From positions 1-35,711 of the forward strand of contig DAHUYZ010000019.1 of the NCBI GenBank assembly GCA_027306855.1: a DNA stretch of 35,711 bases, in the 5' to 3' direction. Below, piece after piece: positions 1,484 through 34,658 of this stretch (position 1 is its first letter; each line of letters opens with the position of its first letter). Below the pieces are notes generated by a model that worked only from the letters and a program-made list of their open reading frames with translations, made no database searches and was not told the origin of the DNA. The position numbers and the translations under genes are program-made. The stretch is from Solirubrobacterales bacterium (GTDB lineage Bacteria; Actinomycetota; Thermoleophilia; Solirubrobacterales; Solirubrobacteraceae).

Positions 1484-2665
1484 CTATGTCGGCGCTCCCA
1501 GCAGAGTCGCCACGACCCCCGCTATTCCGGCGAGGAGCAGCGTGGGCACGACGCCTCTGCGCAGCGCCAGCAGCAAGACGATCGCCGCCGCCAGGATGGC
1601 GTACTGCCACGCCTGGCCGATCGCCGCCGTGAGCGGGATCGCAGAGCCGATGATCGCGCCGACCGCGGCCGGCGCCGTCCCCGCGAGGAACGCCCGCACG
1701 TGCCTGTTCGCGAGCAGCCGCTCAAAGCCCGCGGCTCCAAACAGGACAAACGAGAAGGAAGGCGCGTATGCGACCAGCGATGCGAGCATCGCCGCCGGCA
1801 GTCCACCGGCCGCATATCCCACTGCCGCCACCGTCTGGGTGATTGGGCCAGGGGTGATTTGGCCGAGAGCGACGGCGTTCAAGAACTGGGCATGCGTCAT
1901 CCAGTGATAGGTGTTGACGGCGTCGGCCTGCATCAGCGGCACGATCACAAAGCCACCCCCGAACGCGAGCGCGCCGACCTTGAAGGACGTCCACGCCAAG
2001 GCGCCTATGCCTCCCGTGCCGGCGGTGGCGAGCAGCGCCGTCCGGAACGGACGACGCAACGACCACAGCAGCACGCTTGCTGCGCTCTCGCTCCGGGAGA
2101 TCCTTCGCAGGCCGAGCTCGATCGCGCCGCAGGCGAGCATCACCAGCACGAGCGCCGGACCGAGCGTCGCGGCCGCGGCGCCGCCCGCCACGGCGTAGAC
2201 GACGATGCGCATGCGAGCGCCCGCCTGCGCTCGCCTCCACATCGGCATCGCGATCGTAAAGCCCGCGAGCAGTGCGACCGCCGGCACCGCCGCGCCCGCT
2301 CCGAGCCCCGCGCCACGCACCCACAGCGGCGGCGCCTTCGCCAAGAACAGCGTCGACAAAGCAATCACGAGGATCAGCCCGGGCGCCACGAAGCACAACC
2401 CCCCGACGAGCGCTCCCAACCGCCCCCGCAACCTCCATGCGCAGTAGATCGACAGCTGCGTCGACGCCGGTCCAGGCAGCATGTTGACGGCCGCCAGAGC
2501 CCGCTCGAACTGGCGCTCCTCGATCCACCCTCGATCGGTGACGCACAGCCGGCGAAGCAGCGAGATGTGGACGGCCGGGCCACCGAACCCGGTGCAGCCG
2601 ATCCGACCCCACTCGCGGACGATCTGGGCGAGCGAGGGATCGGCGGGGGTCCTCGAACTCGCCAT
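1484..2665 (-). CDS. chrA: ChrA-family chromate efflux transporter
   Basis: A 393-residue polytopic membrane protein with the two-fold repeat of the long-chain CHR family. The first half carries GCTGFGGPAVHISLL and MLPGPASTQ, and the second half carries ALAFGGGFVIVPLMQ and GQITPGPITQT; these are the paired FGGP and PGP signatures. Members export chromate (some may carry sulfate) across the inner membrane. The start chosen is ATG 2665, because TACGCT at 2680-2675 lies exactly 9 nt before it, the spacing seen at many genes here. An in-frame ATG at 2707 would add 14 residues of low-complexity sequence and lacks such a box. The gene diverges from uppP. No chromate-specific regulator is next to it, so the physiological substrate remains an inference from the family. 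Confidence 0.92.
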   Translation of the reverse strand: MASSRTPADPSLAQIVREWGRIGCTGFGGPAVHISLLRRLCVTDRGWIEERQFERALAAVNMLPGPASTQLSIYCAWRLRGRLGALVGGLCFVAPGLILVIALSTLFLAKAPPLWVRGAGLGAGAAVPAVALLAGFTIAMPMWRRAQAGARMRIVVYAVAGGAAAATLGPALVLVMLACGAIELGLRRISRSESAASVLLWSLRRPFRTALLATAGTGGIGALAWTSFKVGALAFGGGFVIVPLMQADAVNTYHWMTHAQFLNAVALGQITPGPITQTVAAVGYAAGGLPAAMLASLVAYAPSFSFVLFGAAGFERLLANRHVRAFLAGTAPAAVGAIIGSAIPLTAAIGQAWQYAILAAAIVLLLALRRGVVPTLLLAGIAGVVATLLGAPT

Positions 2666-2674
2666 CCTGCCGGG

Positions 2675-2680
2675 AGCGTA
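2675..2680 (-). promoter_or_regulatory. -10 element of chrA, leaderless start
   Basis: TACGCT on the minus strand, 9 nt before ATG 2665. It fits the TAnnnT consensus. The expected transcription start is at or next to the A of the ATG, so no Shine-Dalgarno would be used. Confidence 0.6.
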
Positions 2681-2769
2681 CGTGCTGGCGGGCAGCGGCG
2701 GCGTCATAGGGCGACGATTTGTTCACAACATCGCAACACGCCAAAGACGTCGCGCCCCTCCTGGTCGCG

Positions 2770-2775
2770 TATGCT
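2770..2775 (+). promoter_or_regulatory. -10 element of uppP, probable leaderless start
   Basis: TATGCT ends 10 nt before GTG 2786. It overlaps the alternative ATG at 2771, which argues against that ATG being the start. Confidence 0.45.
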
Positions 2776-2785
2776 GCCCGCCGCC

Positions 2786-3703
2786 GTGACGATCCTCTCC
2801 ATCGCTCCGCTGGCCTCGGCGATCAGCTACTTCCAGGCGATCGTGCTCGGCATCCTGCAGGGCGTGACCGAGCTGTTCCCGATCTCGAGCCTCGGGCATA
2901 CCGTGCTGTTCCCGACCCTGTTCGGCTGGAACGAAGTCGTGAAATTCCAGTCCCAGTCCGAGTCGCCGTGGCTTGCGTTCGTAGTGATGCTGCACGTCGG
3001 TAGCGCGATCGGCCTGCTCATCTACTTCTGGAGCACCTGGGTGGAGATCGTCAAGTCGTTCTTTGCGACGCTTGCCAAGCGTCGCGTCGAGACCTCCACC
3101 GAGCGCCTTGCGTGGCTGATCATCGTCGCGAGCATCCCCGCCGGACTGCTCGGACTCGCTTTCGAGCACCAGCTGCGTACGCTCACCGCCAAGCCCGAAG
3201 TCGCGGCGATCTTCCTGATGGTCAACGGGCTCGTGCTGTTCGCCGCAGAGCGCTACCGCCGCCGGGCGGAGGTGCGCGAACTGGCTGCTCGCGAGGGCCT
3301 GAACCCCGAGGGTGGTCGTCAGCTGGAGACGCTCGAGTATCGCGAGGCGCTGGTCGTAGGGGTCGCCCAGTCGACGGCGCTCATCGCCGGTATCAGCCGA
3401 GACGGCGTCACGATGGGAGCGGGCCTTGCGCGCGGACTCGACCACTCCGACTCCGCCCGCTTCGCCTTTCTGCTCGCCACCCCAATCATCCTCGCCGCCG
3501 GCCTGTTCAAGATGCCCGACCTGCTCGGACACCTCGGCAACGGCATCCGCGGCCAGGCGGTCGTCGCCTGCGTCACCGCGGCGATCACGGCCGTCTTCAC
3601 GGTCGCCTTCCTCGTTCGCTGGTTCAAGACGAAAACGCTGATGCCGTTCGCGATCTACTGCCTGGCGTTCGGCGGCTTCATGGTGCTCTACACGCTGGCA
3701 TGA
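2786..3703 (+). CDS. uppP: Undecaprenyl-diphosphate phosphatase, UppP/BacA family
   Basis: A 305-residue polytopic membrane protein. It would dephosphorylate undecaprenyl diphosphate to recycle the lipid carrier of wall and polysaccharide synthesis. The first signature is ILQGVTELFPISSLGHTV near residues 23-40 and the second is IAGISRDGVTMGAGLARG. Compared with the canonical VEGxTEFLPISSxGH and PGxSRSGxT, the first glutamate is Gln and SRSG is SRDG, while the second Glu and the Arg remain. This looks like a divergent branch rather than a dead enzyme. GTG 2786 is preferred because TATGCT ends 10 nt upstream; ATG 2771 would add five residues. Only 13 nt separate it from the aquaporin gene, so it probably leads an operon with aquaporin and arsC. 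Confidence 0.88.
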   Translation: MTILSIAPLASAISYFQAIVLGILQGVTELFPISSLGHTVLFPTLFGWNEVVKFQSQSESPWLAFVVMLHVGSAIGLLIYFWSTWVEIVKSFFATLAKRRVETSTERLAWLIIVASIPAGLLGLAFEHQLRTLTAKPEVAAIFLMVNGLVLFAAERYRRRAEVRELAAREGLNPEGGRQLETLEYREALVVGVAQSTALIAGISRDGVTMGAGLARGLDHSDSARFAFLLATPIILAAGLFKMPDLLGHLGNGIRGQAVVACVTAAITAVFTVAFLVRWFKTKTLMPFAIYCLAFGGFMVLYTLA

Positions 3704-3716
3704 GCAGTCTGGGTCG

Positions 3717-4448
3717 ATGAAGGGACGACTCGCCTCCGAACGATCAGACCTGGCCCGTCGGGCCGGCGCCGAGGCGCTTGGCGCGTTCGCGCTCGTGTTC
3801 GCGGGCTGCGGCGCGATCGTCACCGATGCCCACACTCATGGAGCGCTCGGCGCTGTCGGGGTGAGCCTCGTGTTCGGGCTGGTGATCCTCGCGGGGATCG
3901 CGGCCCTGGGCCACGTCTCGGGCGCGCATTTCAATCCCGCCGTGACCCTCAGCTTCTTGCTCACGCGCCACCTCCCGAGACGGGACGCGCTCGCCTACGT
4001 GGCTGCGCAGCTGATCGGCGCCGTGCTCGCGGCGCTGTTGTTGTGGGCGATCTGGCCGGGTCAGCCGGCGGACCTGGGCGCCACCGTGCCGAGCATCGCC
4101 GCGGGCCGCGCCTTCGTCGTGGAGGCGGTCATGAGCGGCCTGTTGATGCTCGTGATCCTCAGCGTCGCCACCGACACGCGCGCCGTTGGCGCTCCCGCCG
4201 CGCTTGCGATCGGCGCCACGATCGCGCTCGACGCGCTGTTCGGCGGCCCGCTCACAGGGGCGTCGATGAACCCCGCACGATCGTTTGCGCCCGCGCTCGT
4301 GTCCGGCCAATGGCACGACTTCTGGGTCTACCTCGCCGGCCCCTTCATCGGCGCGCCTCTTGGCGCCCTTGCCTATCAGCTCGTGCGCGGCGAGGCCGCC
4401 GCGCCTGCGATCCCGCCTGCCGCAGTCGAGCTGGAAGAGGTCGTCTGA
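3717..4448 (+). CDS. MIP-family aquaporin / aquaglyceroporin, probably linked to arsenite export
   Basis: A 243-residue channel with six predicted membrane helices and the two half-helix NPA boxes of the MIP family, HFNPAVT at about residues 71-77 and SMNPARS at about 184-190. The Arg following the second NPA supplies the selectivity-filter arginine. Members conduct water, glycerol or neutral metalloid hydroxides such as As(OH)3. The stop codon overlaps the ATG of arsC by one base (TGATG), so the two are translationally coupled. In known aqpS-arsC pairs the reductase makes arsenite, which leaves through the channel. That role is inferred from context; the pore sequence alone does not prove metalloid transport, and plain water or polyol transport remains possible. 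Confidence 0.9.
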   Translation: MKGRLASERSDLARRAGAEALGAFALVFAGCGAIVTDAHTHGALGAVGVSLVFGLVILAGIAALGHVSGAHFNPAVTLSFLLTRHLPRRDALAYVAAQLIGAVLAALLLWAIWPGQPADLGATVPSIAAGRAFVVEAVMSGLLMLVILSVATDTRAVGAPAALAIGATIALDALFGGPLTGASMNPARSFAPALVSGQWHDFWVYLAGPFIGAPLGALAYQLVRGEAAAPAIPPAAVELEEVV

Positions 4449-4843
4449 TGGCGAGCGTGCTGTTCGTGTGCCTGCACAACGCGGGCCGCTCGCAGATGAG
4501 CGCCGCCCTGTTCGAGCGTGAGGCGGCCGGACGCCACTGCGCCCTGTCGGCAGGCACCACGCCGGCGGAGCGTGTCCACCCGGAGGTCGTCGAGGTCATG
4601 CTCGAGCTCGGGATCGATCTTTCGGGGCGCCGTCCACAATTGCTCACGCGCGAGCTCGCCGAGCAGGCCGACGTGGTCGTCACGATGGGCTGCGGCGATG
4701 AGTGCCCCTACATCCCCGGCAAGCGCTACGTCGACTGGGACCTGCCCGACCCGAAGGGCCGTCCGATCGCCGAGGTGCGGGCTACCCGCGAGGAGATAGC
4801 ACGTCGCGTGCGAGCGCTCGTCGAGGAGCTGGACCGTCGGTAA
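4448..4843 (+). CDS. arsC: Arsenate reductase, low-molecular-weight phosphatase type
   Basis: A 131-residue cytoplasmic enzyme that reduces arsenate to arsenite. The N terminus FVCLHNAGRSQMS holds the CX5R anion-binding loop with nucleophile Cys8 and Arg14. Further on, TMGCGDECPYIPGKR provides Cys82 and Cys86, suited to the intramolecular disulfide relay of thioredoxin-coupled ArsC, and DWDLPDPKG contains the Asp-Pro motif of the fold. Length is normal for the family (about 130). The ATG overlaps the aquaporin stop by one base. No ArsR repressor, arsB or acr3 is visible in the window, so the neighbouring channel is the only candidate exit route. A generic protein tyrosine phosphatase is less likely given Cys82/Cys86. 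Confidence 0.92.
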   Translation: MASVLFVCLHNAGRSQMSAALFEREAAGRHCALSAGTTPAERVHPEVVEVMLELGIDLSGRRPQLLTRELAEQADVVVTMGCGDECPYIPGKRYVDWDLPDPKGRPIAEVRATREEIARRVRALVEELDRR

Positions 4844-4922
4844 CCGGACCGTCGCGTCAGGGCAACCGGCCGCACCCACGTCCACGCTACGCCTGTCCTC
4901 GACTACCCCAGCTGCACCCGCA

Positions 4923-4951
4923 TTGTGTCGGGCGCTCTTCGCTCTTAGAAT
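4923..4951 (+). promoter_or_regulatory. Promoter of mscS, leaderless start
   Basis: TTGTGT (4923-4928) and TAGAAT (4946-4951) are separated by 17 bp. TAGAAT ends 9 nt before GTG 4961. The rest of the 117-bp gap after arsC holds nothing else that I recognise. Confidence 0.6.
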
Positions 4952-4960
4952 CTCGCGACG

Positions 4961-5707
4961 GTGTCCACGCGAAGGCCGCTGCCATCGAAGATGTTCGAGA
5001 CGCGCAGCCAGTCCTGGCGCGAAGCGGGGCTTTTGCGCCAGATCAGTCCGGGCGCGGTGAGGCGCGCGCGCTGGGAGGCGCTTGCGCTCGTGCCGCTGTT
5101 CGTCGGGGTGGTCGTGCTCTACGAACACCGCTACTCGCTGCTCGGCCTCGACTCGCGCGGCAAAGGCGAACTGTCGTGGCTAAACGCTCCGATCGACCTG
5201 ATCACGGTCGTCGTGCTCTTGATACTCGGCTGGGCGATCGCGCGCGATGTCGGTCGCGCTTTCGGGCCGGCACTGTTCAGGCGCATGGAGCCGGCGGCCG
5301 CCGGAACGGTCGGCTTCGTCATCCGTCTGCTCACGATCGCCGTGGCGCTGGTCGTGGCGATGCGGATCGTCGGTGTCTCGCCGCGCACGCTCGCGCTCGG
5401 CGGCGCCTTCACGGCCGTCATCGTCGGGCTGGCCGCCCAGCAGACGCTCGGCAACGTGATCGCCGGCACCGTCCTTTTGAGCGCGCGTCCGTTCAGGGTC
5501 GGGGACCGCGTCCGCCTCTACAGCGGCGCGCTCGGCGGCAAGATCGAGGGGACCGTCGGCTCGCTGGGCTTGCTCTATACGACCGTCGTCACCGAGGAGG
5601 GGTCGCTGATGGTGCCCAACAGCGGCGTGCTCAACGCGGCGGTGCTGGCCCCAGAGTCCTCGATCGGCGACGGGCGCGCAAGCAGCGCGAGTGATCGTGA
5701 CGGATAG
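4961..5707 (+). CDS. MscS-family mechanosensitive channel, C-terminally short
   Basis: A 248-residue protein with three predicted membrane helices followed by the MscS pore helix and beta domain. LALGGAFTAVIVGLAAQQTL (about residues 146-165) is the glycine/alanine-rich TM3, then NVIAG, SARPFRVGDRVRLY and GTVGSLGLLYTTVV with MVPNSGVLNAAV form the beta domain. The channel would release solutes under hypo-osmotic stress. The protein ends about 25 residues after VPNSGVLNAAV, so the alpha/beta domain that builds the cytoplasmic cage in E. coli MscS is missing. No continuation is seen before the next gene at 5721. GTG 4961 is favoured by a TAGAAT box 9 nt upstream; ATG 4991 is the alternative. Confidence 0.88.
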   Translation: MSTRRPLPSKMFETRSQSWREAGLLRQISPGAVRRARWEALALVPLFVGVVVLYEHRYSLLGLDSRGKGELSWLNAPIDLITVVVLLILGWAIARDVGRAFGPALFRRMEPAAAGTVGFVIRLLTIAVALVVAMRIVGVSPRTLALGGAFTAVIVGLAAQQTLGNVIAGTVLLSARPFRVGDRVRLYSGALGGKIEGTVGSLGLLYTTVVTEEGSLMVPNSGVLNAAVLAPESSIGDGRASSASDRDG

Positions 5708-5720
5708 CCGTCGCGCGCGG

Positions 5721-6338
5721 TCAGCTCAACTTGAGCACCGCGTACCAGACGCGCTCGGCGACGATCGTGAGGTGGTCGCCGGTGCGCACCATACGGCGGT
5801 AGAGCTCGCGCTTGCCGGCGACCTCGCGCAGGTCGGGGCTGCCGATCAGCGCCGACATGGAGACGCGGTAGATGTGCTCGATGCGCCGCTGGCTGTGGAT
5901 CGCCTCGTCGGCTGCCCCGGTGGCGAGGTCTCGCTGCGCTCGTGGCGCAAGCGCATCGAGCGCCACGGCGAGGTTGCGCGTTCCCGCCGCGAGCTCGTCC
6001 GCCATGCTGGCGATCGCCGCGTCGGGAGCTGCGTCCATCACTTCCGCCTCGCGCACCATGTCCTTGGCGCGGTTGAGCACGCCGTCCAGGCCCTGTGAGA
6101 GCTCGAACAGGTCCTCCGGCTCCAGAGGCGTCGTGAACGCCTGGGTGAGCGCCGTGCGCAGCTCTCGCTTGCGCTCGTCGGCAAGATGCTCGCAGTCGCG
6201 CACCCGGTCGGCGGCGCCCCGCTCGCCGTGCGCCCAGGCCGCCAGCGCCTGCATGCCCTCGACCGTGATCTGTGCCTGTGCTCGCAACAGCCCCAGCAGA
6301 TCGGGGGACCGGGGCAAGAACCAGCGCCGTGTTCTCAT
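5721..6338 (-). CDS. DUF47 / PhoU-like Pit accessory protein
   Basis: A 205-residue, mostly helical, Arg- and Glu-rich soluble protein of the DUF47 (PhoU-like, formerly Pit accessory) family. Supporting stretches are LLRAQAQITVEGMQAL near the N terminus, LADERKRELRTALTQAF, the helix LFELSQGLDGVLNRAKDMVR, and the C-terminal ELYRRMVRTGDHLTIVAERV. Such proteins are thought to modulate or gate the partner Pit transporter; the biochemistry is poorly known. The ATG at 6338 overlaps the pit stop codon as ATGA, which argues for translational coupling. An in-frame ATG at 6353 is possible but would overlap pit by 19 nt. The gene ends 13 bp from the convergent mscS. Confidence 0.85.
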   Translation of the reverse strand: MRTRRWFLPRSPDLLGLLRAQAQITVEGMQALAAWAHGERGAADRVRDCEHLADERKRELRTALTQAFTTPLEPEDLFELSQGLDGVLNRAKDMVREAEVMDAAPDAAIASMADELAAGTRNLAVALDALAPRAQRDLATGAADEAIHSQRRIEHIYRVSMSALIGSPDLREVAGKRELYRRMVRTGDHLTIVAERVWYAVLKLS

Positions 6339-7339
6339 GCGATTGCGCTCCATGCAGCCAGGGTAATCGCGCCGAACGCGGCTGCGGCCGGGAGCGTAAC
6401 GATCCAGGCGAACACCATCGAACGCACCACCGTCCAGCGAATGTGCATCCAGCGACGGCGTCCGCTGCCCACGCCGACGACCGAGGAGGCCACCACATGC
6501 GTTGTGGACACCGGCGCGCCGGCGTAGGAGGCGGCGAGTATCACCGCGGTCGAGACGCCCTGGCTGGCAAACCCGTCGATCGGCGCCAGATGGACGATCC
6601 TCCGGCCGACCGTGCGGATGATGCGCCAGCCGCCCATCGAGGTGCCGAGCGTGAGCATGCCTGCACAGGCGAGCTTGACCCACAGCGGCACCGCGAATGA
6701 GCGCAGGTGGCCGGTCGCGAGCAGCAGCGTCGCGATCACGCCCATCGCCTTCTGGCCGTCGTTTGTTCCGTGGCTGAACGACAGCGCCGCGGACATCACC
6801 CACTCTGCCGCGAAGATCTGTGTCCTCACACGGCTTCTTGCACGGCGCAGCGCACGCCTCAACGTCCACACCGCGCCTGCTCCGAGCAGGAGTCCGATCA
6901 AGGGCGATACGGCGAGTGCGACGAGCACGCCGGCGACGCCGTAGGGGTGCAGGCCGTGTAGGCCGCCCCAGCGCACGGCATTCGTCCCTGAGTCGGCCAG
7001 CGCCGCGCCGAGGAGCCCGCCCACCAGCGCGTGACCTGAGCTCGAAGGCAGCCCCCACCACCACGTGAGCACGTTCCAAAGCGTTGCGCCCAGCACGCCT
7101 GAGCCGACCACCGCGACCGTGCTCGACGGGGATACCGTGACGATGCCGGCAATCGTGCTCGCCACAGCCGTCCCGAATAGCACCGCTCCGAGCACGTTGA
7201 ACAGCGCCGCCAGCGCGATCCCCTGCCGTGGCCTCGCGCCGCGGGTGGCCACGAGCGTCGCGATCGCGTTCGCGGCGTCGTGAAATCCGTTGGTCAACGC
7301 GAAGGCGAGCGCGCAGGCGATCGCGACGGCAAGCGCCAT
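6335..7339 (-). CDS. pit: Pit-family inorganic phosphate transporter
   Basis: A 334-residue integral membrane protein of the inorganic phosphate transporter (PiT) family, which takes up phosphate with protons or sodium. The family duplication is visible: TNGFHDAANAIATLVATRG near residues 16-34 and SFSHGTNDGQKAMGVIATL in the second half correspond to the two conserved GxNDxxNA-type motifs. About ten hydrophobic helices are evident. It is followed by the coupled DUF47 gene and preceded, 45 nt upstream on the same strand, by a CHAD-domain protein, which makes a phosphate-handling group. GGAG stands about 11 nt before ATG 7339. Confidence 0.93.
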   Translation of the reverse strand: MALAVAIACALAFALTNGFHDAANAIATLVATRGARPRQGIALAALFNVLGAVLFGTAVASTIAGIVTVSPSSTVAVVGSGVLGATLWNVLTWWWGLPSSSGHALVGGLLGAALADSGTNAVRWGGLHGLHPYGVAGVLVALAVSPLIGLLLGAGAVWTLRRALRRARSRVRTQIFAAEWVMSAALSFSHGTNDGQKAMGVIATLLLATGHLRSFAVPLWVKLACAGMLTLGTSMGGWRIIRTVGRRIVHLAPIDGFASQGVSTAVILAASYAGAPVSTTHVVASSVVGVGSGRRRWMHIRWTVVRSMVFAWIVTLPAAAAFGAITLAAWSAIA

Positions 7340-7384
7340 CCGTCAATCATCTCCGATGCGATCGTCGGTGAGCTTCGCCGGCTG

Positions 7385-8272
7385 TCAGCTCTTGGCCGGG
7401 GCGGCGTCCTGGAGGCGCTTGTACGTCTTGCGCCAGCGCAAGCGGGCGCGATATGCGGCGGCTCGCTCATGGACGGCCAGCTCGCCCGCCGCGAACGCTC
7501 CGGAGGACGAGCTCGCGTGCTCGGCCCACTCGTGCAGCCACCGCTCGGCGGCGATCGCGTCGCTGCACTCGCCCAGCACCTCCTGCAGCGATGTGGCGGC
7601 ACGCGCCAGCCTGCGCGCGGGCTTGCCCAGTACGGGGGCGCACGCTTCGGCCGCGTACCGGCAGCGCTTCGCTCTGATCCTCACCGCGTGGAGTTCCGCG
7701 TCGGTGGGCGCGCCCGCGAGCGAGTCGACCGCGTGCTCGAGCGCCCGCCATGCCCTGCGCATGACGCGCGGCAGGGCGGTGGCGGCGGGGCGGCCGGCTT
7801 CATCTGTCAGCATCGGCGCCCGCGCGGCCTCGGTCAGCCGCTCGAGTAGGACGGTGTGACGCTCGCCGCCAAGAGCCTCCCGCAGGGCGGCGTACGCCTG
7901 AACACGGTGCGTCGCAAGTGCGCAGCGCACCTCACTGAGGCCTGCTGCACTACCGGCCGGCAGCGTCTTGCCACGCTCGGACAGCCGCTCCAGCAGCACG
8001 TCGGCGTCGCGCGCGGCGCCCAACACGCCGGCGAGCCAGTCGAGCTCCGCTCGCAACCGCGCCGCCCACCGCTCGTCGAGCGCTCCGCGGAAGGTGCGCA
8101 GATCGCTGCGCAGCCGCCGCGTGGCGACCCGCGCCTTGTGCACCGCCTCGGGGTCGGCGCCGTCTCGAGAGTCGCGGCCGGATTGGCGTATGAGCGCCTC
8201 GTTGCGAACGAGTCGCGCCACCCCGCCTCTGAGCGCGGCGGTCACCACATCGCCCACCAGCATTTCGTTCAT
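7385..8272 (-). CDS. CHAD-domain protein
   Basis: A 295-residue Arg/Ala-rich helical protein with the CHAD (conserved histidine alpha-helical) domain. Diagnostic stretches are EAVHKARVATRRLRSDLRTF near residues 42-61 and LHAVRIRAKRCRYAAEACAP in the second half; both place His among clustered Arg and Lys on a helix. CHAD domains bind inorganic polyphosphate and are often encoded near phosphate or polyphosphate genes. Here it sits just upstream of pit and its DUF47 partner, in line with that role. No CYTH phosphatase domain is attached. The ATG at 8272 has no clear Shine-Dalgarno; ATG 8263 is an in-frame alternative. Confidence 0.9.
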   Translation of the reverse strand: MNEMLVGDVVTAALRGGVARLVRNEALIRQSGRDSRDGADPEAVHKARVATRRLRSDLRTFRGALDERWAARLRAELDWLAGVLGAARDADVLLERLSERGKTLPAGSAAGLSEVRCALATHRVQAYAALREALGGERHTVLLERLTEAARAPMLTDEAGRPAATALPRVMRRAWRALEHAVDSLAGAPTDAELHAVRIRAKRCRYAAEACAPVLGKPARRLARAATSLQEVLGECSDAIAAERWLHEWAEHASSSSGAFAAGELAVHERAAAYRARLRWRKTYKRLQDAAPAKS

Positions 8273-8341
8273 ACGCCCGGCCTGCCAGGCATGTGTTGAG
8301 CGTATCGCCGCAAGGCCTACATATGTGCGTCGCCGAAGTTA

Positions 8342-9247: not shown

Positions 9248-9301
9248 ATACCACGTCGGTAACACGCGACCCGGCCGACCTGCTACCTTCGTTTGCGTCT
9301 G

Positions 9302-9319
9302 GCCGGGGGAAAACCCGGC
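9302..9319 (+). other. Stem-loop in the cold-shock gene leader
   Basis: GCCGGG (9302-9307) can pair with CCCGGC (9314-9319) around the loop GGAAAA. It lies about 84 nt upstream of the csp start and would be in a 5' leader if transcription begins before it. Many cold-shock genes have structured leaders; that this is one is an inference. Confidence 0.35.
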
Positions 9320-9390
9320 GAAAAGCAGTGCAAGCGCTCGCAGGGCGAGGCTCTAGAAGCATCCTCCGCGCGGCAGCACGCACATATCGT

Positions 9391-9395
9391 GGAGG
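9391..9395 (+). promoter_or_regulatory. Strong ribosome binding site of the cold-shock gene
   Basis: GGAGG, 7 nt before ATG 9403, is nearly the full anti-Shine-Dalgarno complement. It fixes the start and contrasts with the many leaderless genes around it. Confidence 0.85.
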
Positions 9396-9402
9396 AAATC
9401 AC

Positions 9403-9606
9403 ATGCCTACCGGCACAGTGAAGTGGTTCAGTGACGACAAGGGATTCGGCTTCATCACCCCTGATGACGGCGACAAGGACCTGTTCGTCCACCACACCGG
9501 AATCAACGGCGAAGGCTATCGCTCGCTGCAGGAGGGCGCCAAAGTGTCCTACGACGCAGAGCAGGGCGACAAGGGCCCGAAGGCCGTCAACGTCCAGGCG
9601 ATCTAG
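9403..9606 (+). CDS. Cold-shock protein, CspA family
   Basis: A 67-residue single cold-shock domain (OB fold), the usual length. The RNA-binding motifs are intact: KGFGFITP at residues 13-20 (RNP1) and DLFVHHTGI at 26-34 (RNP2), with KWF at 7-9 before them. It binds single-stranded RNA and DNA and acts as an RNA chaperone. The strong GGAGG site suggests high expression. It stands alone with an upstream region of about 150 bp containing a small hairpin, and is followed after 37 nt by a perfect 20-nt palindrome at 9644-9663 that could end its transcript. Confidence 0.96.
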
Positions 9607-12965: not shown

Positions 12966-12971
12966 AGCGTA
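12966..12971 (-). promoter_or_regulatory. -10 element of the rhodanese gene, leaderless start
   Basis: TACGCT on the minus strand, 9 nt before ATG 12956. Confidence 0.6.
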
Positions 12972-19938: not shown

Positions 19939-19948
19939 ACCATATACT
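19939..19948. promoter_or_regulatory. Overlapping divergent -10 boxes of two methyltransferase genes
   Basis: TATGGT on the minus strand (19944-19939) and TATACT on the plus strand (19943-19948) share a central TA. Each ends 8 nt before its start codon (ATG 19930, GTG 19957). The two leaderless promoters cannot be opened by two polymerases at once. Confidence 0.6.
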
Positions 19949-22762: not shown

Positions 22763-22772
22763 ATCCTAGATA
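22763..22772. promoter_or_regulatory. Overlapping divergent -10 boxes, acyltransferase / meaB
   Basis: TAGGAT on the minus strand (22768-22763) ends 8 nt before GTG 22754. TAGATA on the plus strand (22767-22772) ends 9 nt before GTG 22782 but lacks the final T, so that half is weaker. The boxes share a central TA, as at 19939-19948. Confidence 0.5.
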
Positions 22773-25027: not shown

Positions 25028-25045
25028 ATGCTAACCGAGTAGGCT
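25028..25045. promoter_or_regulatory. Face-to-face leaderless promoters, FA hydroxylase / F420 nitroreductase
   Basis: TAGCAT on the minus strand (25033-25028) ends 9 nt before ATG 25018, and TAGGCT on the plus strand (25040-25045) ends 9 nt before ATG 25055. Six bp separate them. ATGACC at 25017-25022 stands 17 bp before TAGGCT and is a fair -35; it overlaps the opposing start codon. Confidence 0.6.
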
Positions 25046-25519: not shown

Positions 25520-26668
25520 TCACGCGCCCAGCGCGCGGGCGATCACCATCTGCTGCACCTCGTCGGTGCCCTCGCCAATCGTGAGGATCTTGGCGTCCCG
25601 GTAGAAGCGGCAGACGGGGTACTCCTCGATGAAGCCGTACCCGCCGTGGATCTGCACCGCCTCCTCCGTGCAGCGCACCGCCAGCCGGCCCGTCTTCAGC
25701 TTGGCCTGGGCGGCGGTCAGCGTGAAGTCGCGGCCTGAGTCCTTCTCGCGAGCGGCCTTGTACACGAGCAGCCTCGCCGCCTCGATCTCGGCAGACATGT
25801 CCGCGAGCTTGGCCTGGATCGCCTGGAACTTGGAGATCGGCTTGCCGAACGCTACGCGCTGCTTGGCATACGCGAGCGCCTGATCCAGCGCACCCTGGGC
25901 GAGGCCGACTCCCATCGCCGCGACTCCGATCCGGCCGATGTCGAGGATCTTCAGAAACTGCTTGAAGCCCTGCCCGCGCTGCCCCAGCAGGCTCTCCCGC
26001 GGAACGCGACATTCGCTGAAGGACAGCGGTCGCGTGTCCGATGCGTTCCAGCCCATCTTGCGATACGGCTCGCCCTGCTCGTATCCCGATGTCCCGTTCG
26101 GAACGATGATGTTCGAGATCTCCTTCGCGCCGCCCCCTTCTTCGCCGGTGACGGCTGTGATGCAGACCATCCCCGAGATGTCGGTGCCGGCGTTCGTGAT
26201 GAATTGCTTGGCGCCGTCGATCACCCATTCGCCGTCCTCTAGACGCGCACGCGTGCGCGTGTTGCCGGCGTCGCTGCCCGCGTCTGGCTCGGTCAGCCCG
26301 AACGCCCCGAGCACCTCGCCTGAGCACAGCTTCGGCAGCCACTGCCGCTTCTGCTCCTCCGTCCCGAACAGCCAGATCGGCTGCGTTCCGAGCGAGGTGT
26401 GGGCGCAGACCGTGATTGCCACTGACGAGTCGACTCTCGTCAGCTCCTCGACGGCCAGAACGTACGCGAGCGTGTCGCCGCCGCCCCCGCCGTAATCCTG
26501 CGGGAAGGGAATCCCCATCAGCCCGAGCTCGCCTAGCTTCGCGACGATCTCATACGGGAAGGACTTGGTCCTGTCGAGCTCCTCCGCGACCGGCGCGACC
26601 TCGGCCTCGGCGAACTCCCTGACGGTGCGCCTGATCAGCTCGTGGTCTTGGGACAGGTCGAAGTCCAT
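25520..26668 (-). CDS. Acyl-CoA dehydrogenase (second copy)
   Basis: A 382-residue acyl-CoA dehydrogenase. FGLTEPDAGSDAGNTRTRA is the first family signature, WVIDGAKQFITNAG follows, and AVQIHGGYGFIEEYPVCRFY with IGEGTDEVQQMVIARAL gives the second signature and the catalytic Glu at about 366. The sequence is closest to short-chain or branched-chain types (butyryl- or isobutyryl-CoA), but this is not certain. Electrons would pass to EtfAB. ATG 26668 is supported by the typical MDFDLS start and a TAGGGT box ending 10 nt upstream; a longer reading to 26716 would run through three GCAAGT repeats that look regulatory. It differs clearly from the copy at 13058. Confidence 0.95.
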   Translation of the reverse strand: MDFDLSQDHELIRRTVREFAEAEVAPVAEELDRTKSFPYEIVAKLGELGLMGIPFPQDYGGGGGDTLAYVLAVEELTRVDSSVAITVCAHTSLGTQPIWLFGTEEQKRQWLPKLCSGEVLGAFGLTEPDAGSDAGNTRTRARLEDGEWVIDGAKQFITNAGTDISGMVCITAVTGEEGGGAKEISNIIVPNGTSGYEQGEPYRKMGWNASDTRPLSFSECRVPRESLLGQRGQGFKQFLKILDIGRIGVAAMGVGLAQGALDQALAYAKQRVAFGKPISKFQAIQAKLADMSAEIEAARLLVYKAAREKDSGRDFTLTAAQAKLKTGRLAVRCTEEAVQIHGGYGFIEEYPVCRFYRDAKILTIGEGTDEVQQMVIARALGA

Positions 26669-26678
26669 GGCGGCGCTA

Positions 26679-26716
26679 ACCCTACTTGCAAGCCACTTGC
26701 TACTACTTGCATGCAA
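26679..26716 (-). promoter_or_regulatory. Promoter of the second acyl-CoA dehydrogenase with three phased GCAAGT repeats
   Basis: On the minus strand TAGGGT (26684-26679) ends 10 nt before ATG 26668. Just upstream GCAAGT occurs three times, at 26689-26684, 26700-26695 and 26710-26705, spaced 11 and 10 bp apart, about one helical turn. Palindromes CTTGCAAG (26685-26692) and TTGCATGCAA (26707-26716) lie within the same block. No recognisable -35 is at the normal distance. Confidence 0.55.
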
Positions 26717-26778
26717 AACCTAAAAGGCGCCCAGCCGACGTCCTGCGTCTCGCCAACGAGCATCGCGTCCGCGGGCGG

Positions 26779-28260: not shown

Positions 28261-28269
28261 GGTGTCGGC

Positions 28270-28275
28270 ACCATA
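28270..28275 (-). promoter_or_regulatory. -10 element of pepA, leaderless start
   Basis: TATGGT on the minus strand ends 9 nt before GTG 28260. Confidence 0.55.
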
Positions 28276-28371
28276 TCCGCTGGAGAGCGCATCCGTCCGA
28301 TAGATCGGTCTGGCGTAGGCCTCGCCCTCGCGCGCGCGAAGAAAGGCGAAGAAAGGCTTACGCCGCGCGCT

Positions 28372-28389
28372 CACGCGCATACGCGCGTG
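28372..28389. repeat. Inverted repeat in the pepA / thiolase divergent region
   Basis: CACGCGC (28372-28378), centre ATAC, GCGCGTG (28383-28389), followed at once by TATATAAG, the most AT-rich patch of the region. It is a good operator candidate for the downstream thiolase or for both genes. TAGCAT at 28450-28455 is another -10-like hexamer. Nothing else is recognised in the 250-bp gap. Confidence 0.5.
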
Positions 28390-28510
28390 TATATAAGAAG
28401 GGAAGAGCGGGAAGGCCTGTTCCGCGCGGTACCCGAGACGGCCGCCCGATAGCATTGCGATCCCAGGCCGCCCCACGGCGGACCCCTCGACCTCCAGGAG
28501 AACCGCCTCG

Positions 28511-29686
<1,176 letters not shown>

Positions 29687-29690
29687 GGCG

Positions 29691-30116
29691 ATGGCGGCCG
29701 AGGCGCCCGCGAAGGGCAAGATTCGCGTCGTCGTGGCCAAGCCCGGACTGGACGGGCACGACCGCGGCGCGAAGATCATCGCGCGCGCGCTGCGCGATGC
29801 CGGTATGGAGGTCATTTACACGGGCCTGCACCAGACCCCCGAGCAGATAGTCGAGACGGTCATCCAGGAGGACGCCGACGCTGTTGGGTTGTCGATCCTC
29901 TCGGGCGCCCACATGACGCTCGTGCCGCGCGTCGTAGAGCTGCTGCGCGAGCAGTCGATCGACGACGTGCTCGTCACCGTCGGCGGCACGATCCCCGCCG
30001 AAGACATCCCGGAGCTGAAGAAGCTCGGCGTGGCCGAAGTCTTTACACCGGGAGCGCCTACGCAGGACATTGTGGAGTTCATCCGCGGGGCGACCCGCGC
30101 TCATGAGGCCGGCTGA
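29691..30116 (+). CDS. Stand-alone cobalamin-binding (acyl-CoA mutase small) subunit
   Basis: A 141-residue B12-binding domain of the methylmalonyl-CoA mutase C-terminal type. [19 protein letters not shown] contains the DxHxxG motif with His23 as the lower cobalt ligand, and [20 protein letters not shown] and [19 protein letters not shown] form the rest of the Rossmann-like fold. It must pair with a separate large subunit (methylmalonyl-, isobutyryl- or similar acyl-CoA mutase) not in the window. The MeaB GTPase at 22782 would serve the same enzyme. It begins 4 nt after the thiolase stop. Confidence 0.93.
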
Positions 30117-30162
30117 GCGGCCCTACCGATGCCGAGCATTCGCCGGCGAACCCGTCACCTGA

Positions 30163-30178
30163 TTGACTCGTCAGTCAA
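30163..30178. promoter_or_regulatory. Putative TetR operator over the etf promoter
   Basis: TTGACTCGTCAGTCAA: 6-bp inverted arms around a 4-bp centre. The half-sites equal those at 17411-17426. It contains the -35 of the etfB promoter, so a bound repressor would block polymerase. Confidence 0.65.
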
Positions 30179-30190
30179 CTCAGATAGGAT
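30163..30190 (+). promoter_or_regulatory. Promoter of the etfB-etfA-ETF-QO operon
   Basis: TTGACT (30163-30168) and TAGGAT (30185-30190) are spaced 16 bp apart. The expected start of transcription is near 30197, leaving a leader of about 27 nt with AAGGAG at 30211-30216, 7 nt before ATG 30224. Confidence 0.65.
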
Positions 30191-30223
30191 TAGTCCCATC
30201 GAGACCCCTCAAGGAGTAGCTGA

Positions 30224-31015
30224 ATGAAGATTTGCGTCCTGGTGAAGGAGGTTCCGGACGCCGCCGTCGAGAAGAGGCTCAACAACTCGACGGGGCGGAT
30301 GGACCGCAGCGGGGAGAAGAACCTCAACCCGTATGACACACACGCCATCGAGGCTGCGATGCAGATACGCGAGGGCGGCGTCGCCCCCGTCGAGGAAATC
30401 GTAGCCGTGACCATGGGCCCGGAGAGCGCCGTTCGCGCACTGCACAAGGCCGTCTCGCTCGGAGCGGACCGCTCGGTCCATCTCTCGGATGAGGCCGTCG
30501 CAGGCTCGGATGTGGCCGCCACCGGCTATGCGCTCGCGCAGACGCTGCGGCGCGAGAGCCCCGACCTGGTGCTGCTCGGCCAGCAGTCAGACGACGGCGA
30601 GTGCTACACGATCGGCGCGGTCGTCGCCGAGCACCTCGGCATGCCCTCGCTCACCCAGGTCATCAAGATGGACGTCGAGACCGGCGCGCTTCGTTGTGAG
30701 CGACAGGCCGAGTACGGCTACGACACGGTGCAGGTCAGCCTGCCGGCCGTGATCTCCGTCGGCGACGCGATCAACGAGCCGCGCTATCCGTCGTTGAAGG
30801 CGATCATGGGCGCCAAGAAGAAGCCGCTCGAGACGGTCGGTGCCGCAGATGTCGAGATCGATACCTCGAAGGTCGGCGGCGAGAACTCCGCCGCTCGCTG
30901 GATCGCCGCGAAGGCGCCGCCGGCGAAGGCCGCGGGGGAGATCATCGAGGACGAAGACACCGCCGAGACGGTCGAGAAGATCGTCGCCTGGCTCGACGAG
31001 CGCAAGCTCATCTAG
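30224..31015 (+). CDS. etfB: Electron transfer flavoprotein beta subunit
   Basis: A 263-residue EtfB. MKICVLVKEVPDA opens the fold, NPYDTHAIEAAMQI is typical, and QSDDGECYTIGAVVAEHLG with the later AINEPRYPSLKAIMGAKKKP is the family's signature end. With EtfA it forms a soluble FAD/AMP heterodimer that collects electrons from acyl-CoA dehydrogenases such as those at 13058 and 25520. It has a clear Shine-Dalgarno and its own promoter, covered by a palindrome shared with the tetR unit. etfA follows after 22 nt. Confidence 0.97.
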   Translation: MKICVLVKEVPDAAVEKRLNNSTGRMDRSGEKNLNPYDTHAIEAAMQIREGGVAPVEEIVAVTMGPESAVRALHKAVSLGADRSVHLSDEAVAGSDVAATGYALAQTLRRESPDLVLLGQQSDDGECYTIGAVVAEHLGMPSLTQVIKMDVETGALRCERQAEYGYDTVQVSLPAVISVGDAINEPRYPSLKAIMGAKKKPLETVGAADVEIDTSKVGGENSAARWIAAKAPPAKAAGEIIEDEDTAETVEKIVAWLDERKLI

Positions 31016-31037
31016 ACCAGCGAAAGGAACTGGAGAA

Positions 31038-32015
31038 ATGACAAACATCCTGGTCTACGCCCTTCACTACGAAGGCGCGATCAACAAGAACTCGCTCGGC
31101 GCCGTCTCCGAGGGTGCCAAGCTCGCCGCCGAGCTGGGTGGCGAGGCGCACGCGATCCTTGTCGGCGAGGGGGTCCCGCAGGACCTCGCCGCCTCGCTCG
31201 GCAACTACGGCGCCTCCAAGGTGCTCGTCGCCGAGGGCCCCGAAGGGCTTGCGCAGCCCGTCGTCGACGCGATGGGCGCGGCGATCTCTGGCGGCGACTA
31301 CAAATACGCGTTGTTCGGCGGCGGCCTGCTCGGCTTCGAGATCGGCGCCGGCCTGGCCGCACGCCTCGGCGCAGGCGTGGCGATGGAGGTCACAGCCGTG
31401 CGCGCCGAGGGCGGCGAGCTGATCGCAGAGCGTCCGATCCTCGGCGATTCGGCGATCTCCGAGATCTCCTACCGCTCGGAGGTCGGCATCGTGATCGGAC
31501 GGCTGAACGCGTTCGAGATCAAAGAGACCGGCGCCGGGGCCGCTGCGGTCGAGCAGCTCAGCTTCGAGCTGAGTCCGCACGCGTCGCAGGCGAAGATGAT
31601 CACGCGCGGCGAACAGCGCGGCGCTGACGTCGACATCGAGGGCGCCGACATCCTCGTCGCCGGCGGTCGCGGTCTGGGCAAGGCTGAGGGCTTCCAGCTC
31701 TGCGAGGAGCTGGCGGGTGCGTTCGGCAACAACGCGGCGGTGGCCGCGACCCGCGCGGTCGTCGACGCCGGCTGGTACCCATACGCCGCTCAGATCGGCC
31801 AGACCGGCAAGACGGTCTCGCCAAAGCTGTACCTCGCAGCGGGCATCTCCGGTGCGATCCAGCACAAGGTCGGGATGCAGTCGTCGGAGAACATCGTCGC
31901 GATCAACAAGGACTCCAACGCGCCGATCTTCGAGTTCTCCGACCTCGGCATCGTGGGCGATCTCAACAAGATCCTGCCCAAGCTGACCGAGGCCGTGAAG
32001 GCGAAGAAGGGCTGA
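31038..32015 (+). CDS. etfA: Electron transfer flavoprotein alpha subunit
   Basis: A 325-residue EtfA. The C-terminal FAD-binding domain is textbook: VAGGRGLGKAEGFQLCEELA, ATRAVVDAGWYPYAAQIGQT, GKTVSPKLYLAAGISGAIQH and VAINKDSNAPIFEFSDLGIV, with KVGMQ between the last two. The N-terminal domain contacts EtfB. It carries the FAD that accepts electrons from dehydrogenases and passes them to ETF-QO. GGAG at 31032-31035 precedes ATG 31038. Part of the etfB-etfA-ETF-QO operon. Confidence 0.97.
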   Translation: MTNILVYALHYEGAINKNSLGAVSEGAKLAAELGGEAHAILVGEGVPQDLAASLGNYGASKVLVAEGPEGLAQPVVDAMGAAISGGDYKYALFGGGLLGFEIGAGLAARLGAGVAMEVTAVRAEGGELIAERPILGDSAISEISYRSEVGIVIGRLNAFEIKETGAGAAAVEQLSFELSPHASQAKMITRGEQRGADVDIEGADILVAGGRGLGKAEGFQLCEELAGAFGNNAAVAATRAVVDAGWYPYAAQIGQTGKTVSPKLYLAAGISGAIQHKVGMQSSENIVAINKDSNAPIFEFSDLGIVGDLNKILPKLTEAVKAKKG

Positions 32016-32067
32016 GGCAGTAGGTCGTCCGGGCGGGTAAGGATGCGCGAGCGAAAAGGAGCAAGCC

Positions 32068-33825
32068 ATGTCGTCGCATAACGGTTCGAGCAACGGCAGG
32101 GTCGCGCCCGCGGCCTTCCCGCCCCCCGTCGACACCCAGAAGGAGTTCGTCAAGCGCGGGCTCGACTCCGAGGACGAGCTGATCGAGGTCGGCGTGGCGA
32201 TCGTCGGCGGCGGGACCGCAGGTCTCGCCTGCGCCAACCGTCTGCTGCAGCTACTAGGCGACGATCCCGAGACGATGGAGCGCCTCGGCGAAGTGCCAGT
32301 GGCGGTCATCGAGAAGGCCAAGACCTGCGGCGGGCACAATCTCTCGGGCGCGGTCATGCGTCCCGGTCCGCTGCAAGAGCTCTTTCCGGACATGACCCGT
32401 GAGCAGTGGCGCCAAGAGGGGTTCGCGTTCGGGGAGGTGACGAAGGAGTCGGTCTACATGCTCACCGGCCCCAAAACCAAGCTCCCGGTTCCCATTCCAG
32501 CGGTGCCGAACTTCAAGAACCACGGCAACGAGGTCATCTCCGTCTCAGCGCTCGCTCGCTTTCAGCAGCGCCAAGCCGAAGAGGGCGGCGCCTACATCCT
32601 CACGGAGACCTCTGCCACGCAGTTGATCGTCGAGGACGGCAAGGTCGTCGGTGTACGCTCAGGCGACAAGGGGCGGGGCAAGGAGGGCGAGCCGCTCGGC
32701 AACTTCGAGCCGGGGACGGACATCAAGGCGAAAGCCGTGGTGCTCGCCGAGGGCTGCTGGGGACACCTCACCGGCGCCGCGATCAGAGAGTTCGATCTCG
32801 CCGACAGCCGCGAGCCGCAGGTATGGGAGCTTGGAGTCAAGGAGGTATGGAAAGTCTCCAAGCCGCTCGACCGGGTGATCCACACGTTTGTGCAGCCATG
32901 GCCGCTGAAGGTTGCGGCCAAGTACGGACAGCTCGGCGGGACCTGGATCTACCCTATGAAGGACGAGAAGACCGGCGAGAACCTCGTGTCGATCGGATTC
33001 GTAGTCGACCTCAACTATCGCGACGCGACGACCTCGGCTCATGACCTGCTGCAGACGTTCAAGACGCATCCGCTAGTCAAGGGCATCCTCGAGGGGGGCG
33101 AGCGAATCGCATGGGGCGCCAAGGCGCTTCCGGGCGGCGGCTACTGGTCGATGCCCAAGCTCTCGATGCCTGGCGCCTTGCTCGTCGGTGACGCCGGCGG
33201 CATGGTGGACACAGCGGCCTTGAAGGGCGTGCACCACTGCATCAAGTCAGGGATGCTGGCGGCCGAGTCGATCTATGCGGCGCTCAAGCGCGGCAGCAGC
33301 GACCTGTCCGACTATGAGCAGGCGGTCGAGAACTCCTCGATCGGCAAAGAGCTGTGGGAGGTCCGCAACACACGACAGGCGTTCCAAAAGGGCTTCCTCG
33401 TCGGCAGCCTCCTAGCGGGACCGTCGATCATGTCCAAGGGCAAGCTACCCCCGGGTCGGCAGGAATGGCATCGCGATGACGCCGAGCCGATGTTCGTCGG
33501 AAACACCAAGGACCGCTATCCCAAGCCTGACGGCAAATACACGTTCGACAAGCTCTCCTCGGTCTTCATCACCGGCAACGCCACCCGCGACGACGCTCCC
33601 AACCACATCCGCATCCAAAAGCACGTCCCGCGCGAGATCGCAGAAACCTGGCGCTGGATGTGTCCGGCGGGTGTGTACGAGATCCCGGAGGACGCGCCCG
33701 AGACCGGCGATGTCGACGTGGTCGTCAACTACACCAACTGCGTGCAGTGCGGGGCGATCACCGCGAAGGGCGGGCGTTTGACGACGCCAGAGGGGGGCGA
33801 CGGCCCCCTCTACCAGTTGACCTGA
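32068..33825 (+). CDS. Electron transfer flavoprotein-quinone oxidoreductase, one Fe-S cysteine missing
   Basis: A 585-residue membrane-associated flavoprotein that moves electrons from reduced ETF to the quinone pool. VGVAIVGGGTAGLACANRLL is the FAD-binding GxGxxG region, GGHNLSGAVM and the GALLVGDAGGMVDTAALKGV stretch are family motifs, and the C-terminal ferredoxin-like part runs WMCPAGVYEIPED to PEGGDGPLY. The [4Fe-4S] ligands should be four Cys; Cys532, Cys558 and Cys561 are present, but in NCVQCGAIT the expected last Cys is Ile564 (codon 33757-33759). AAGGAG at 32056-32061 stands 6 nt before ATG 32068. It closes the etf operon and matches the two-subunit ETF next to it. Confidence 0.93.
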   Translation: MSSHNGSSNGRVAPAAFPPPVDTQKEFVKRGLDSEDELIEVGVAIVGGGTAGLACANRLLQLLGDDPETMERLGEVPVAVIEKAKTCGGHNLSGAVMRPGPLQELFPDMTREQWRQEGFAFGEVTKESVYMLTGPKTKLPVPIPAVPNFKNHGNEVISVSALARFQQRQAEEGGAYILTETSATQLIVEDGKVVGVRSGDKGRGKEGEPLGNFEPGTDIKAKAVVLAEGCWGHLTGAAIREFDLADSREPQVWELGVKEVWKVSKPLDRVIHTFVQPWPLKVAAKYGQLGGTWIYPMKDEKTGENLVSIGFVVDLNYRDATTSAHDLLQTFKTHPLVKGILEGGERIAWGAKALPGGGYWSMPKLSMPGALLVGDAGGMVDTAALKGVHHCIKSGMLAAESIYAALKRGSSDLSDYEQAVENSSIGKELWEVRNTRQAFQKGFLVGSLLAGPSIMSKGKLPPGRQEWHRDDAEPMFVGNTKDRYPKPDGKYTFDKLSSVFITGNATRDDAPNHIRIQKHVPREIAETWRWMCPAGVYEIPEDAPETGDVDVVVNYTNCVQCGAITAKGGRLTTPEGGDGPLYQLT

Positions 33826-33839
33826 ACGTCCCGAAACAC

Positions 33840-33855
33840 CACCCGTTTTCGGGTG
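33840..33855 (+). terminator. Stem-loop after the etf operon
   Basis: CACCCG (33840-33845), loop TTTT, CGGGTG (33850-33855), 14 nt after the ETF-QO stop. Followed by TT only, so a weak intrinsic terminator at best. Confidence 0.4.
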
Positions 33856-33869
33856 TTATGGACGTGTGA

Positions 33870-34409
33870 ATGGTCAGGGTGCGTCAAATCATCGGTAGCG
33901 CATGCGCGCTTGTGTGCGCGTCGGCTGTCCTCTTTGGGTCGGACTCGGCCATCGCGAGCGGCGGGGGGCGCAACGTCCCGGTGGGCGCCCCCTCCGACGC
34001 GAGCAGCTACTCGGCGACGCTCGAACAGTGCATGACGTCGTCTAATCAGCTCGAAAGGTCTGCCACGGTCACCGGCGAGATCATCGCCGGCGCCACAACG
34101 ATGCGGATGGGGATGCGCATCGAGCTGCAGCAGCGCGTAAACGACACCGAGCCTTTTCGCACGATCGTCGCCCCCGGACTCGGAGACTGGCGCTACTCCG
34201 AACCGGGCGTCAAGATCTACAAGTACGTCAAGCAGGTCACGAACCTCGCGGCGCCCGCCTCTTACCGCGCGATCGTTCGCTTTCGCTGGCTCGGCTCCCA
34301 CGGGCGCCTGCTCAAGCGGGCCGAGCTGCGCACGGCAACGTGCGAGCAGCCGCTTCCGGGGCCGCCCGCTCCACTGACGGCGTCGATGCCCGCTTCCTCC
34401 GCTCGCTAG
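33870..34409 (+). CDS. Secreted protein of unknown function
   Basis: A 179-residue protein that I do not recognise. It starts with a signal peptide: basic MVRVRQ, a hydrophobic core through residues 7-22, and a likely cleavage site after AIA near residue 29. The mature part has two cysteines (54 and 158) that could form a disulfide, mixed polar strands such as MRIELQQRV and YRAIVRFRWLG, and a Pro/Ser-rich tail. The pattern suggests a small beta-sandwich exported domain. It lies between the etf operon and rpmE with its own, unclear promoter. The start ATG 33870 is uncertain; GTG 33879 is also possible. Confidence 0.65.
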   Translation: MVRVRQIIGSACALVCASAVLFGSDSAIASGGGRNVPVGAPSDASSYSATLEQCMTSSNQLERSATVTGEIIAGATTMRMGMRIELQQRVNDTEPFRTIVAPGLGDWRYSEPGVKIYKYVKQVTNLAAPASYRAIVRFRWLGSHGRLLKRAELRTATCEQPLPGPPAPLTASMPASSAR

Positions 34410-34412
34410 AAT
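34407..34412 (+). promoter_or_regulatory. -10 element of rpmE, leaderless start
   Basis: TAGAAT ends 9 nt before ATG 34422. It overlaps the stop codon (TAG, 34407-34409) of the preceding secreted-protein gene. Confidence 0.6.
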
Positions 34413-34421
34413 ACGCGGACG

Positions 34422-34658
34422 ATGAAGCCCTCGATCCATCCCGCCTACGTGCAGGCCCACGTGCGCTGCACGTGCGGCAATGAGTTCATGACTCGCGCCA
34501 CCCAGGAGGAGCTGCACGTCGAGGTGTGCTCCAACTGCCATCCCTTCTACACGGGCAAGCAGAAGCTCGTCGACACGGGCGGGCGCGTCGAGCGCTTCCA
34601 GCGCAGGGTCGCGAAGGGACGCCTACGCTCAACGCAGTCACAGAAGCAGCCTCAGTAG
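34422..34658 (+). CDS. rpmE: 50S ribosomal protein L31, zinc-binding form
   Basis: A 78-residue L31. The C+ form is clear: RCTCGNEF at about residues 15-22 and [20 protein letters not shown] at 35-54 give the zinc ligands and the family signature, followed by RVERFQRR. The last 13 residues are a basic, Gln-rich tail that is longer than in many relatives. ATG 34422 is leaderless by its TAGAAT box. The 3' half shares DNA with the open frame of the DUF1385 gene. Confidence 0.95.

Follow-up and report, generated by a model that had tools for sequence, protein, structure and literature searches.

TAnnnT boxes close to start codons suggest leaderless or nearly leaderless genes in a Solirubrobacterales genome

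In the TA-led genes of Actinobacteria and Deinococcus-Thermus, as presented in the sections of the work of Zheng and colleagues that were available (PMC3160421), a TAnnnT motif precedes the start codon and no Shine-Dalgarno (SD) site is found; such genes amount to about 20% in Actinobacteria. In Mycobacterium, where leaderless starts were measured, the available sections of two studies give leaderless shares of 22–26% (PMC3898074) and 24% (PMC6448022), about a quarter of genes, with a TAnnnT -10 element, VAnnnT variants and no -35 element found. Rubrobacter and Conexibacter have no occurrence in the main text of PMC3160421, and no account of leaderless genes in Thermoleophilia was found in the open-access literature searched, where the one paper retrieved for the two subjects together deals with anti-SD sequences. 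Here we describe TAnnnT boxes that lie a few nucleotides (nt) before start codons in a 35,711-nt contig of a Solirubrobacterales bacterium (GCA_027306855.1, contig DAHUYZ010000019.1; the whole contig is called the window), a member of Thermoleophilia, and in its relatives. The boxes resemble those of TA-led genes in motif, frequency and scarcity of SD sites, and the mycobacterial ones in motif, frequency, VAnnnT variants and the lack of a -35 signal. They differ from TA-led genes in position, the first T being about 12 bp before the start there (a spacer of about 6 nt) and 12–17 bp here, with a second mode at 15, and from the mycobacterial cases in that leaderless starts are deduced here from sequence.

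The host genome, from an uncultured soil bacterium of the family Solirubrobacteraceae (Actinomycetota), has 2.23 Mb in 259 contigs and is 92% complete; compared by an ETF-QO-type protein, its nearest named relatives are metagenome-assembled genomes of that family, at 94% and 91%. Of this genome, 554,810 bases including the window, about a quarter of the genome, were used as the own-genome sample (10,891 of these are N). Genes were called with a codon-model caller that is blind to upstream sequence, so that the starts are motif-blind. A box is any TAnnnT, and the spacer is the number of nt between box and start codon. At spacers of 6–11 nt a box was found in 78 of the 475 motif-blind starts, whereas 200 shuffles of the upstream letters averaged 12.7 and never exceeded 21. 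The excess proposed in an earlier reading of the window from its letters alone (the sequence-only reading) is thus general in the sampled quarter of the genome. When the start was left free within 60 nt, 108 of 472 genes had a box, compared with 9, 17, 13, 19 and 15 genes in five other six-nt spacing bands. A family sample of 1,150 starts, from the own genome and 20 other genomes of the family, contained 192 boxes at 6–11 nt where 18.8 were expected from spacers 15–59. In the relatives' set (80 loci, 1.28 Mb, all around one gene and hence not independent), 205 of 1140 starts had a box at spacers 6–10, against 6 at spacers 21–25; several genomes appear to be common to this set and the family sample. 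In roughly one gene in six the message thus seems to start on the start codon or only a few nt ahead of it. Among the relatives, records titled Chlamydiae bacterium or Bifidobacterium breve (L042, L068, L071, L078 and L099) encode close relatives of the ETF-QO-type protein, with 74–80% identity, and their titles look wrong.

Boxed starts rarely carry an SD site: 8 of 78 against 135 of 397 unboxed starts in the own-genome sample, and 15 of 192 against 322 of 958 in the family sample (P=5e-15). No -35 signal was found in the upstream regions aligned on the box. A TGn that compensates for a weak box is the behaviour of an extended -10 element recognised by a sigma-70-type factor. In genes of the family sample without TAnnnT and SD, TGnVAnnnT occurred 28 times at 6–11 nt against 3.7 expected, and TGn preceded 28 of 135 VAnnnT words but only 8 of 192 TAnnnT boxes (P=3e-6). 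Such compensation argues for a -10 element, and since boxes without the first T can carry TGn, counts of TAnnnT understate the leaderless genes. Preceding TGn was also seen with boxes lacking the first T in orthologues of the starts at 26668 and 22782 (TGTGAGAAT, TGCGATGAT). Boxless, SD-less genes included 6 with CATnAT against 0.7 expected.

Taken together, position, the rarity of SD sites, the missing -35 element, recurrence at orthologous starts and TGn make it very probable that the boxes serve leaderless or nearly leaderless genes as -10 elements. The leaderless proposal of the sequence-only reading thereby gains support from the excess in the sample, from its replication in relatives, from the few SD sites and from a box and start that recur in most orthologues tested. 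The box would be the -10 element of the housekeeping (sigma-70/SigA-type) RNA polymerase, and transcription would begin on the start codon itself or a few nt short of it. For roughly one gene in six the message would then have no SD leader, and in translation the start codon at its 5' end would be recognised directly. The layout in this order appears compact, in that a neighbour's stop codon may form the first letters of a box and two divergent genes may use one palindromic -10 element.

All 12 boxes named in the sequence-only reading are present in the window at the spacings it gave, and they make up a fifth (12 of 64) of all TAnnnT there on both strands. On the plus strand they precede uppP (BacA; TATGCT, 2770..2775, spacer 10, start 2786), mscS (TAGAAT, 4946..4951, spacer 9, start 4961), the F420-dependent reductase gene (TAGGCT, 25040..25045, spacer 9, start 25055, 36 nt from the divergent start 25018) and rpmE (TAGAAT, 34407..34412, spacer 9, start 34422). 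Minus-strand boxes stand before chrA (TACGCT, 2675..2680, spacer 9, start 2665), the rhodanese gene (TACGCT, 12966..12971, spacer 9, start 12956), the hexapeptide acyltransferase gene (TAGGAT, 22763..22768, spacer 8, start 22754), the fatty acid (FA) hydroxylase gene (TAGCAT, 25028..25033, spacer 9, start 25018), the second acyl-CoA dehydrogenase gene (TAGGGT, 26679..26684, spacer 10, start 26668) and pepA (M17; TATGGT, 28270..28275, spacer 9, start 28260). The remaining two lie between a divergent pair of methyltransferase genes, in the palindrome ACCATATACT at 19939..19948, which holds two boxes with one TA in common: TATGGT for the minus-strand gene (spacer 8, start 19930) and TATACT for the plus-strand gene (spacer 8, start 19957). 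The gene names agree with Pfam matches. A weaker box that had been suggested for meaB is readable as GATACT, and by eye several relatives have TGCGATGAT at a spacer of 9–10. About half a case had been expected by chance, a figure that follows from base composition, though the actual box density is lower still.

At motif-blind starts, 7 of the 39 genes called in the window have a box at 8–10 nt; a moved start is needed for the box at chrA, uppP, mscS, the acyltransferase and pepA. Orthologues back three of these five moved starts, those of uppP, chrA and pepA. When the start may move within 60 nt, the box recurs at uppP in 17 of 19 relatives and at chrA in 5 of 6 distinct ones (a poor match was left out); the pepA box is found in 27 of the 28 orthologues that align from the start. 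For the F420 reductase, 7 of 8 relatives have the box if the start may move by up to 45 nt, and 4 of 7 if only the aligned start is considered. For the minus-strand methyltransferase all 19 aligned short regions (of 20) have the box; for its plus-strand partner 6 of 16 rows do, in short alignments that placed the start poorly. The 29 orthologues of the acyl-CoA dehydrogenase comprise 10 with TAnnnT, 9 with a TGn-extended VAnnnT and 10 with neither, and of three relatives compared at the FA hydroxylase, L032 has the box (spacer 8) and the remaining two align late. The claim that the operon genes etfA and thiolase use SD sites is upheld by their orthologues, which have an SD site and no box in 63 of 65 and 39 of 40 cases. 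A leadered control is provided by etfB, where TAGGAT (30185..30190, plus strand) lies 33 nt before the start at 30224, with AAGGAG at 30211-30216 in between; 44 of 64 etfB orthologues have a box 20–59 nt upstream (mostly 30–35) plus an SD site.

Several observations weigh against the leaderless interpretation or limit it. TAnnnT precedes mscS in only 1 of 35 non-self rows (some genomes are represented twice), and the acyltransferase box is weakly backed, being found in 2 of the 14 rows shown and at other starts. In one family genome (G254) all 33 starts lack a box. Genes other than first genes can be boxed, as are 21 of 151 that lie within 25 nt of a co-directional upstream neighbour, and boxes are not restricted to long upstream gaps, being rarest beyond 60 nt (13 of 132). 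The transcription starts are themselves inferred, and leaders of 1–3 nt would be indistinguishable from none; with boxes at 9–11 nt, some messages may have leaders of that length. C or T at -1 is only slightly more frequent in boxed genes (about 60% against 55%), an enrichment too weak to decide by a pyrimidine test whether transcription starts exactly on the codon, and that test was set aside. Another family genome (G234) has 2 boxes in 28 starts. By eye, many mscS orthologues among L305-L323 instead have a box resembling CATCAT, at a similar distance from the start. Elsewhere in the own-genome sample boxes occur before 32 of 144 genes with a divergent neighbour, at 10 of 36 co-directional gaps of 26–60 nt and at 2 of 12 contig edges. 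A rule that boxes mark first genes was dropped, because boxes are also present at gaps of up to 25 nt and are least common beyond 60 nt.

The exact spacing of 8–10 nt reported for the window was overstated. In the family sample the spacers range from 6 to 11 nt with modes at 6 and 9, and the lower edge is sharp, with 2 boxes at spacer 5 and 42 at spacer 6. A small rise at 12 accompanies the two modes, as if in steps of three, and of the 52 triplets that precede the start at spacer 9, 7 are ACG. Boxes at 6–8 and 9–11 nt number 111 and 81 in the family, and 35 and 2 in four Actinomycetota samples (Rhodococcus jostii pRHL1, Streptomyces clavuligerus pCLA1 and two chromosomes; P=4e-6). A pool of five other genomes of the phylum has 9 and 7, other families of the class have 20 and 10, and no difference from the family is seen in either (P=1.0 and 0.43). 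All outgroups together have 9 of 53 boxes at 9–11 nt against 81 of 192 in the family (P=7e-4). Longer spacing was considered as a mark of this order and dropped, given the lack of difference in the five-genome pool and the other families of the class.

It is a substantial, if tentative, possibility that polymerase starts 7–8 nt after the box as usual, and thus 1–3 nt before the start codon, leaving a short leader. The two spacing modes would fit this, as would the A at position -3 of rpmE, which occurs in 72% of 29 loci at spacer 9 and 59% of 17 at spacer 10 (the 7th and 8th base after the box, respectively) and in only 1 of 8 at spacer 8. In leadered etfB, too, the 8th base after the box is the one most often A (45%), yet this signal is weak, with A at 39% and 41% at positions 4 and 13. 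Moreover, spacer 6 is a full mode and fits a start exactly at the codon, and the spacer 9 group is without a clear pyrimidine-purine step at the 6th–7th base. As the M. smegmatis work, in its available sections, counts leaders of up to 5 nt as leaderless (PMC6448022), a short leader would be a shade of the same thing.

The fixed range of distance to the start codon could also be produced by a translation signal, or by an A/T-rich unstructured patch before the start codon, with no promoter involved. We consider this very unlikely. A translation signal would not show TGn compensation when the first T is missing, the same box lies about 30–35 nt upstream in SD-led etfB, and two boxes share a palindrome between divergent starts.

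Often the stop codon of the upstream gene is at the same time the start of the next gene's box, an arrangement that seems new. In the family sample the upstream stop is TAG or TAA (TAR) in 35 of 47 co-directional pairs with a gap of 9–14 nt, compared with 141 of 327 at gaps of 15–200 nt (P=7e-5). At gaps of 9–14 nt, TARnnT is formed at 20 of the 35 TAR stops and at none of the 12 TGA stops, and TAR stops at other gaps form it in 18 of 141 cases (P=1.6e-7 against 20 of 35). The relatives' loci repeat the pattern (18 of 32 TAR, 0 of 13 TGA, 27 of 192 at other gaps), and outside the order but within the class 4 of 10 TAR stops show it, compared with 1 of 40. Of 504 co-directional pairs in the outgroup samples none shares a stop in this way, a weak negative in that only 17 have a gap of 9–14 nt and 3 of these TAR stops. 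The window example is rpmE, whose box begins with the TAG (34407-34409) that ends the preceding gene; that gene has no Pfam match, and similar frames occur in 45 of the relatives' loci. In L048 and L052 a preceding-gene stop also lies within a box, at sequences matching their rpmE upstream regions. As a TAG or TAA in a box halts any frame that runs into it, stops may gather on boxes. No account of stop codons serving as -10 elements was found in the open-access literature searched, including the available sections of PMC6448022.

The reverse, that the boxes are a by-product of upstream TAG or TAA stops, would explain why 9 of 44 co-directional boxes in the own-genome sample begin on the upstream stop codon. 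It is most improbable, in that the other 35 do not, 32 further boxes face a divergent neighbour and TAR stops at other gaps seldom come with the T of the box (the 18 of 141 above). Chance combined with a choice among start codons can practically be dismissed: 5 of the 12 boxes in the window do need a moved start, yet the excess appears at motif-blind starts and orthologues back three of those five.

Bidirectional promoters, described by Warman, Grainger and colleagues, are found in all prokaryotes according to the available sections of PMC12825309, and there a pseudo-symmetrical -10 element stimulates divergent transcription. The divergent pairs described here are similar in having a symmetrical -10 element; the window pair is unlike those promoters in that its starts (19930 and 19957) are only 26 nt apart, 10 of them palindrome, with both genes predicted to be leaderless. 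By eye, the six closest doubly boxed divergent pairs among the called genes, with 23–27 nt between starts, all have AnnnTAnnnT, with one TA common to both -10 boxes. Close divergent pairs thus share one palindrome, which seems new. In 2.72 Mb of the family and relatives AnnnTAnnnT occurs 246 times in 238 distinct contexts; 16 of the 246 (16 distinct contexts) lie between two start codons 6–11 nt away, compared with 19 of 9,026 occurrences of six control patterns pooled. These counts are of start codons opening frames of at least 80 codons, that is, of candidate genes not all of which were checked as genes. The outgroup set gives 1 of 165, that one being from the class, and 22 of 4,268 for the control patterns. 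The methyltransferase palindrome of the window has the form AnnnTAnnnT in 13 of 20 orthologous upstream regions. The second divergent pair of the window (25018 and 25055) has two separate boxes.

At rpmE, all 61 relatives' loci with a placed start are boxed, with an SD-like word in one, as are 2 of 2 family loci (one of which repeats a relative, with identical upstream letters) and the one locus from the order, so that every one of the 63 distinct loci from this order and its kin carries the box. The 11 loci from other families of the class include 3 that are boxed (one doubtful) and 7 with an SD site, and in other classes the numbers are 1 and 34 of 35; from the latter one row was dropped as its start was not placed, and 30 loci were the best-scoring of a phylum survey and not random. 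The L31 leader of Actinobacteria (RF03158; PMC7247131) concerns rpmE too, and a leaderless rpmE would have no room for it. With its covariance model we found no match in the window or at 11 relatives' rpmE loci, and a match at two of two rpmE loci from elsewhere in the phylum; a further 20 rpmE loci of other genomes also gave none, so the absence of RF03158 alone is not special. In M. tuberculosis, by the available sections of PMC3898074, no ribosomal protein gene is leaderless, whereas rpmE appears leaderless here. The leaderless promoters of this order may form part of the gene grid itself, with TAG stops kept or captured as -10 elements, 10-bp palindromes as the core control of two genes, and the SD leader of rpmE, together with the L31-binding leader that some other Actinomycetota have, traded for a leaderless promoter. 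We regard this reading, taken as a whole, as evenly balanced.

Leaderless genes are ordinary for the phylum, while stop-codon sharing, palindrome sharing and the rpmE switch seem new. Box positions correct several start codons and offer a position rule for annotating the group. Both the double use of stop codons as -10 elements and the supply of two genes from a single 10-bp palindrome can be tested directly. The rpmE trade, if true, would abolish autoregulation of L31 via its own 5' leader, and the rpmE switch, present at every placed locus of the order and its kin and almost missing from other classes, is a clear example in which to study how a gene's mode of translation initiation changes.

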